From the NCBI GenBank assembly GCA_028448965.1, contig JAONQT010000006.1, forward strand, positions 1 to 34,147: a stretch of 34,147 bases of DNA, read 5' to 3'. Each line of letters opens with the position of its first letter. The stretch's first letter is position 1. This document shows positions 1,392 to 22,926 of this stretch, one piece after another. The notes beneath the pieces were generated by a model. That model had not been told where the DNA came from. It was given only the letters and a program-made list of their open reading frames with translations, and did no database searches. This DNA is from Candidatus Nitrosopumilus sp. (GTDB lineage: Archaea; Thermoproteota; Nitrososphaeria; Nitrososphaerales; Nitrosopumilaceae). The position numbers and the translations under genes are program-made.

Positions 1392-1789
1392 TGAAGTTAA
1401 ATAAAAAATGGATTAGGACTAGATGGTTGGAAGAAAGATTTGGTCATGCATATTACTTGATGTTTGCATTAACTTTAGTTAATTTTATTTTAATTTCATA
1501 TAGATATTTTATTGAACAAGATCCAAAATTACAAGAAATAATACCAAATTTATCAATATTTACAATAATTTTAGTAATTTTTTATATTCCAACATCAATT
1601 ATAATTGGTTACTGGCATAGAAAAACACAATTAAGTACTGAAAACACAATTAAACGATTAGAAGATCCATTACTGGCTCATATTTGTAGAATTATTTTAG
1701 ATACAAGAATAGGAAATGTATCTAAAAAAGAAATTAATGAATTAAAAGAATTATTATTAAAAATTGATGATGAAAAAAATGAGGAATGA
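1391..1789 (+). CDS. Small membrane protein of unknown function, two predicted TM segments (paralog B)
   Basis: Intact 132 aa ORF; TAATG stop/start overlap with the upstream paralog; shared W(V/I)RxRWxExRxGH...YL...VNFxLISYR...YIPTxIIIGYWHRxTQL. Confidence 0.8.
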   Translation: MKLNKKWIRTRWLEERFGHAYYLMFALTLVNFILISYRYFIEQDPKLQEIIPNLSIFTIILVIFYIPTSIIIGYWHRKTQLSTENTIKRLEDPLLAHICRIILDTRIGNVSKKEINELKELLLKIDDEKNEE

Positions 1790-17985: not shown

Positions 17986-18405
17986 TTATTCTCCAATAAT
18001 TTTAACTAAAACTCTTTTTAATCTTTTACCATCAAATTCTCCATAGAAAATTTGTTCCCACGGACCAAAATCTAATTGTCCATTTGTAATTGCAACTACA
18101 ACTTCTCTTCCCATAATCTGTCTTTTTAAATGAGCATCTGCATTATCCTCACCAGTATTATTATGATCATATTGTTCAATGGGTTCATGTGGTGCTAATT
18201 CTTCTAGCCATTTTTCATAATCATGATGTAATCCACTTTCATTATCATTAATGAAAACACTTGCAGTGATATGCATTGCATTAACAAGACAAAGACCTTC
18301 CTGAATTTTACTTTTTGATACTAATTTTGAAATATCAGAAGTAATGTTAACAAACCCTCTTCGTTTTTTAACTTGAAAAGTTAGATAATCAGTTAAGAAT
18401 TTCAC
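17986..18405 (-). CDS. YjbQ (UPF0047) family protein; probable GTG start at 18405
   Basis: [22 protein letters not shown]...[39 protein letters not shown]...[50 protein letters not shown]. The track start at 18438 adds a non-conserved-looking N-terminus abutting the sRNA. Confidence 0.88.
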
Positions 18406-18441
18406 ATAATAACAATACAAATCAAGCATTAAAATCATAAG

Positions 18442-18502
18442 GCAGGCTCAGAACTCAAGATCCTCATCACTAGTCAGAAGGATAGGGATCATCACAGCCT
18501 GC
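18442..18502 (-). ncRNA. C/D box sRNA (2'-O-methylation guide)
   Basis: Minus strand: GCAGGCT GTGATGA TCCCTATCCTT CTGA CTA GTGATGA GGATCTTGAGTT CTGA GCCTGC. Box C, D', C' and D are all canonical; 7-bp terminal stem GCAGGCT/AGCCTGC (its 3' arm overlaps the final A of box D); guides of 11 and 12 nt. Confidence 0.9.
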
Positions 18503-18576
18503 AAGCCAAATTTTAGAGATATTCCTATTGAGTCTTTCAAGAAGCTTGATAAATGGCGAATAGTTAGTCAAGCAAA

Positions 18577-18993
18577 ATGGTCACAATTAGCACTCCATCA
18601 ACATTAGAAAGTTTTAGAAGATTTATCATATCTAGTACCTGTAAATCATATGCTCCAAGAAGTTATTTGGAAGATTCAGAAGTGTTTGCAGAAAGAGAAG
18701 ATAATTTGGGTGCAATATACGTTGAAGCTGCAGATAAAGTAACGTTAAAAAAAATTAGAGATATTACATTTATGAATGCAAGAGATGTACTTGGAATTAT
18801 TTATAATTCAAAAAGTGGAAACACATCTCTAAAATGGCGTCAAATAAGAAGAATGGAAGGTAAAGTAACAGGTGAAGCTTCCCCAAATTCTTTAACAAAC
18901 TTAGCAGAATCAGGAGTTCTTACTTTAGATTGGGTTGAAAGTTATCTAAAGAAAAAATCACAAGAAGAAAAAACTACTGAAACAACAAAATAA
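18577..18993 (+). CDS. Conserved-looking hypothetical protein
   Basis: Intact 138 aa ORF with acidic/lysine-rich tail; no family recognised. Confidence 0.75.
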   Translation: MVTISTPSTLESFRRFIISSTCKSYAPRSYLEDSEVFAEREDNLGAIYVEAADKVTLKKIRDITFMNARDVLGIIYNSKSGNTSLKWRQIRRMEGKVTGEASPNSLTNLAESGVLTLDWVESYLKKKSQEEKTTETTK

Positions 18994-22610: not shown

Positions 22611-22926
22611 GGTAGTAGGTAGGATTGGGGTGCTAGCCGTGCCCTATTCTGAAACCGGCTATATGCAGAGATCAGTAACTGTTGGGTAAATCTCTAGATG
22701 GGTAATTCCCGCTTGGTGTGCGGAAATGAAATCACGCCGAGGCGGGTGGTTGCAGGACTAGAAATATTCGAAGGAATAACTTCTAAGACCGAACCATCGA
22801 AAGGGATGAGGTCCGGGAGGGAGCAATCCTAAGATGGGGCATCCACGCTTCCTCGTCTACGTGGCGGATCTTGTACGCCTTGAAATGGGGCTATTCGTCT
22901 AGACTGGAACCAACGGATCTACTACC
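22611..22926 (+). ncRNA. Archaeal signal recognition particle RNA (7S RNA)
   Basis: Conserved SRP54-binding helix 8 block GAGGTCCGGGAGGGAGCAATCC (about 22808-22829); complementary termini GGTAGTAG/CTACTACC; GC-rich structured non-coding block of about 316 nt. Confidence 0.9.

Follow-up and report, generated by a model that had tools for sequence, protein, structure and literature searches.

We report a box C/D guide sRNA on the minus strand of a Nitrosopumilus contig that very probably directs fibrillarin-made 2'-O-methylation of C34 (Cm34) in tRNA-Leu(CAA) through its D guide. This reading is carried by the anatomy of the RNA, its conservation, the register of the guide on the tRNA of the same genome, a matched change between guide and tRNA seen in one distant family, and the host's own fibrillarin gene. 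A Cm34 guide for this tRNA had been proposed in the first-pass annotation of the window, i.e. the whole stretch of 34,147 nucleotides that was analysed, and the proposal is now supported at the level of prediction by host pairing, register and conservation at ten of ten loci. The genome to which the window belongs (G000) is incomplete (653 kb, 54% complete); its closest named relative, judged by the UPF0047 protein, is the Nitrosopumilus isolate AH-660-L10. The features of the locus are as follows:

17986..18438, minus strand: neighbouring UPF0047 (yjbQ) gene (Pfam PF01894, 130.8 bits)
18442..18502, minus strand: box C/D guide sRNA, minimal extent of 61 nt, delimited by boxes, stem and conservation
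18497..18502, minus strand: 5' arm of the terminal stem, GCAGGC (pairs 1-3 intact in 61/61 homologues)
18489..18495, minus strand: box C, GTGATGA
18478..18488, minus strand: D' guide region, TCCCTATCCTT, without a convincing target
18474..18477, minus strand: box D', CTGA
18464..18470, minus strand: box C', GTGATGA (degenerate in many relatives)
18452..18463, minus strand: D guide, GGATCTTGAGTT, complementary to nt 30-41 of the host tRNA-Leu(CAA), position 5 opposite C34
18448..18451, minus strand: box D, CTGA
18442..18447, minus strand: 3' arm of the terminal stem, GCCTGC

Read on the minus strand from 18502 to 18442, the sequence is GCAGGC-T-GTGATGA-TCCCTATCCTT-CTGA-CTA-GTGATGA-GGATCTTGAGTT-CTGA-GCCTGC and, judged by its sequence, is a complete archaeal box C/D sRNA. 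The boxes stand in the archaeal order C (RUGAUGA), D' (CUGA), C' (RUGAUGA) and D (CUGA), and the guides of 12 nt (D) and 11 nt (D') and the D'-C' spacer of 3 nt agree with the guides of about 10-12 nt and the short spacer of this class, so that the four canonical boxes and 11/12-nt guides described earlier are borne out. The terminal stem had been given as 7 bp. Six of these pairs (GCAGGC/GCCTGC) stand, outside the boxes and closing the C/D K-turn; pairs 1-3 are formed in all 61 homologues and show two-sided changes (CG/TA; GC/AT; GC/AT). The seventh pair, between the T before box C and the last A of box D, was not accepted because the nucleotide before box C varies (T 14, C 7, A 21 and G 19 among 61 distinct homologues) while the last A of box D is invariant; this is the behaviour expected of the unpaired bulge position of the K-turn. 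The nearest Rfam models are likewise C/D sRNAs, namely snoPyro_CD (RF00095; 33.6 bits, E 1.2e-5, gathering threshold 45 bits) and sR5 (RF01304; 31.1 bits, gathering threshold 40 bits). A normal Rfam scan returned no entry at the locus, and the RNA is indeed unlisted in that no Rfam family reports it at its own threshold.

The UPF0047/yjbQ gene follows the sRNA directly downstream, on the same strand. The true start of that gene is probably a GTG near 18405, and a T/A-rich stretch just past the sRNA looks as though it could be its TATA box. On the other side of the sRNA, a block of about 36 nt (18520-18556), situated before a divergent gene at 18577 (plus strand), is nearly invariant in the genus. 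A sequence within it, TTGATAAA, could act as a bidirectional TATA box, and the block is a probable divergent promoter; a coding sequence on its plus strand was rejected, given a stop in that frame in a relative (read by eye). Elsewhere in the window, an archaeal SRP RNA gene was found at 22613-22924 on the plus strand (RF01857, 110 bits). A search of a plasmid collection gave no match.

The complementarity of the D guide had been argued from a typical archaeal anticodon arm, and here the host's own tRNA was used. The tRNA-Leu(CAA) gene is present in the incomplete genome (G000:C4:1054-1154) and is interrupted after position 37 by an intron of 16 nt (AGGGACTCAAG / ATCTATAATATAGGAA / ATCCCT). 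With the mature anticodon arm, AGGGA-CUCAAGA-UCCCU, all 12 nucleotides of the D guide are paired without interruption, in 11 Watson-Crick pairs and one U-G pair at guide position 1, and C34 falls opposite the fifth guide position upstream of box D (N+5). Fewer than ten contiguous pairs had been named in advance as evidence against the proposal; twelve were found. The best-scoring target of the D guide is tRNA-Leu(CAA) both among the 42 tRNAs of a nearly complete sister genome (G006) and among the 27 tRNAs recovered from a genome of another family (G037). The best score was equalled somewhere in the tRNA set by 8 of 400 permuted guides when the register was not required, and the pairing score, taken by itself, is no more than moderately unusual; the argument therefore rests on conservation and register.

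Conservation was examined by similarity, by pattern and by synteny. BLAST of the sRNA region retrieved close homologues from 26 other genomes of the genus with E-values below 1e-13. Pattern searches recovered the RNA from 153 of 300 genomes of the order (38 of 64 genera) and 152 of 397 genomes of the phylum (60 of 166 sampled genera), and a reversed-pattern control gave none in the order and only isolated matches in the phylum. As such searches select for the guide core, loci fetched by the UPF0047 protein alone served as the unselected test. Exact GATCTTGAG occurred in an sRNA immediately upstream of the UPF0047 gene at 10/10 thaumarchaeal loci versus 0/70 bacterial loci, and the nine core guide bases are kept at all ten of these syntenic loci; conservation of the guide upstream of yjbQ in relatives had been named earlier as a check. 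Across the homologues, in rows that were themselves selected for the core, the core is constant and changes fall outside the seed, at guide positions 1, 2 and 12, in box C' and on the D' side. At one locus (L223, genome G265) the D' guide and its neighbourhood are now a long (AT)n repeat, with C, C', the D guide, D and the terminal stem intact. In two families of the order (f8 and f10), tRNA-Leu(CAA) genes are present and a recognisable guide was almost never found by pattern search. Stronger matches to the SpoU family of methyltransferases were seen in f2, f4 and f10 genomes, f10 having a SpoU protein, and the match in f8 (two genomes) is at most weak; in f8 and f10, C34 modification may be either not universal or made otherwise.

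The guide of several other families reads GGTCTTGAG, with G for A at position 10. One genome of a distant family, G387, combines the guide GGGTCTTGAGTG with a tRNA-Leu(CAA) bearing C39 (CGGGCUCAAGACCCG), as against A10 and U39 in the host of the window. This tRNA gene, recovered from stretches of the genome, is intronless, with the arm GCGGG-CUCAAGA-CCCGC. Exchanging guide or tRNA between the two genomes would cost one pair or create a wobble, and the pair between guide position 10 and tRNA nucleotide 39 appears to have changed from A-U to G-C across two separate genes, as seen in this single genome. The distant genome G462 has G10 in its guide and U39 in its mature tRNA, a wobble pair; its intron opens with ACU, and G10 pairs with the intron C at +2 in Watson-Crick fashion, better than with the exon U39. 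This genome counts as one exception where the spliced target is concerned and may be read as one hint for the precursor. For G504, of a second family with a G10 guide, no tRNA-Leu(CAA) was found in the roughly 800 kb taken, and no covariation was seen by eye between guide position 12 and tRNA or intron.

The intron begins with AUC or AUU in almost all listed intron-bearing tRNA-Leu(CAA) genes of the order, echoing the AUC of the 3' exon; in contrast, the tRNA-Tyr intron of G006 starts with UUG and is followed by exon AAA. Since the intron start repeats the exon start, precursor and mature tRNA both offer the guide 11-12 nt of pairing, and with the host precursor the guide forms ten Watson-Crick and two G-U pairs. 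The guide may conceivably act on the unspliced precursor, in which case a trans-acting guide RNA would hold intron starts under selection and C34 would be methylated before splicing, a proposal that we put forward tentatively and consider rather doubtful. The AUC start of the intron was rejected as proof of a link to the guide: f10 introns start with AUC too, without a detected guide, and the tRNA-Leu(CAA) genes of that family share the start CUCAAG/AUC.

Several other explanations of the locus were weighed. The sRNA could be real and serve mainly through its D' guide, which would reach an important target such as rRNA, the tRNA match being secondary. The D' core is itself conserved, as ATCCC in the host's family and as AGCCC or TCTRRCCC elsewhere, and one 16S site is matched repeatedly across the family, weakly and with G-U pairs. 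However, no D' match of at least ten standard pairs without wobbles was found in the rRNA operons of eight genomes, the tRNA sets of G000, G006 and G037, or SRP RNA, where the matches were weak and GU-rich only; moreover, D' drifts between families and has given way to the repeat in one genome, whereas the D guide is constant. We regard a primary role of D' as unlikely, and its guide either lacks a target or has one that was not found here. A D' guide without a target is not unusual, because tRNA-directed sRNAs of Pyrobaculum likewise have one guide for the tRNA and the other without a target (PMC7994747).

It is also conceivable that C34 is methylated by a stand-alone TrmL-like protein, as Cm34 is made by TrmL in E. 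coli (PMC6313347), and that the sRNA is a relic or, from its place immediately 5' of yjbQ on the same strand, a regulatory element of that gene. Neither TrmL nor TrmJ was seen in the Nitrosopumilus genomes searched (five relatives in the genus). Each of these relatives has one SpoU-family match, three of them over the cut-off, and in one of them the match was identified, as aTrm56, which makes Cm56. In addition, the guide core is retained in other families and classes too, and a relic is not expected to retain nine guide bases, which makes this explanation very improbable. That the locus is a chance resemblance and not an sRNA gene could be argued from the short, AT-rich intergenic region and the Rfam scores below gathering. 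Against this, the four-box pattern occurs once in the window and in none of 300 Markov-1 simulated windows (both strands), the stem covaries and conservation is phylum-wide; chance is refuted by this conservation and deserves practically no credence.

A guide for Cm34 of tRNA-Leu(CAA) is therefore the reading that we retain, with the following predicted course. The RNA would be transcribed and assembled into an RNP, with L7Ae, Nop5 and fibrillarin bound at the C/D and C'/D' motifs; the D guide would base-pair with the tRNA-Leu(CAA) anticodon arm, and fibrillarin would add a 2'-O-methyl to C34, the wobble base. The benefit would presumably be the usual one, namely that a CmAA anticodon reads UUG firmly. 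Fibrillarin is encoded in the host by a partial gene at a contig end (G000:C17:6-650, 303 bits), and was found in 13 of 13 other genomes searched.

Related guides were seen alongside. In genome G081, a related C/D sRNA (L150:~1440-1520, minus strand) carries a guide, GGATTATGAGTT, that is complementary to the anticodon arm (ACTCATAATC) of the host's CAU tRNA (L028), which has an intron. Box D of this RNA is ATGA, yet in L150 a 6-bp stem (GACCTA/TAGGTC) closes it, and it is probably a C34 guide for a CAU tRNA with an unusual box D. The same 22-mer occurs in four more genomes (G262, G120, G274 and G276) and a CTGA variant in G505. The tRNA with anticodon CAT at L028 and L283 has its intron at a non-canonical site ahead of the anticodon, where it separates the 5' anticodon stem from ACTCATAATC. 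A further guide variant, GATCTCGAG (G355, G493, G385, G440 and G430), would match the anticodon arm CUCGAGAUC with C34 of tRNA-Ser(CGA). From these sequences, wobble-C guides may form a set whose members are one or two bases apart.

As a principle, a guide route to C34 has a precedent, since C34 of tRNA-Leu(CAA) had earlier been named as the predicted target of C/D sRNAs in Pyrococcus (PMC7994747; PMC7668247). By mass spectrometry of P. furiosus, predicted methylations including that of C34 of tRNA-Leu(CAA) were undetected in the tRNAs analysed (PMC7668247). As compared by description, the Pyrococcus guides share with the present sRNA the RNA class, the predicted target and the use of one guide per tRNA, whereas the Nitrosopumilus sRNA belongs to mesophilic marine Nitrososphaerota and is fixed upstream of yjbQ in the genus. 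RNA-guided Cm34 is established for tRNA-Trp, and the Cm34 of tRNA-Met is predicted to be sRNA-guided (PMC2584109). These systems, the C/D RNA in the pre-tRNA-Trp intron and the sR49-type tRNA-Met guide of Haloferax/Pyrococcus (PMC2584109), resemble the present one in archaeal, fibrillarin-made, RNA-guided Cm34 and in intron-containing pre-tRNAs; the Nitrosopumilus sRNA differs in being a separate gene, not an intron, and in its tRNA, Leu(CAA). Bacterial TrmL shares the modification of tRNA-Leu (Cm34/cmnm5Um34); it is a protein-only SPOUT enzyme, in contrast to the RNA guide predicted here, and was not found in the Nitrosopumilus genomes searched. In the literature searched, no paper was found that treats a C/D sRNA of the Nitrosopumilus group.

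Ammonia oxidisers of the Nitrosopumilus type occur in the sea in very high abundance. The sRNA described here provides a concrete guide-target pair for predicted RNA-guided wobble methylation outside hyperthermophiles, together with a clean genetic prediction, and the pairing common to intron and exon allows a test of whether methylation or splicing comes first. That the RNA recurs in 60 of the 166 genera sampled from the phylum points to an old tRNA guide.
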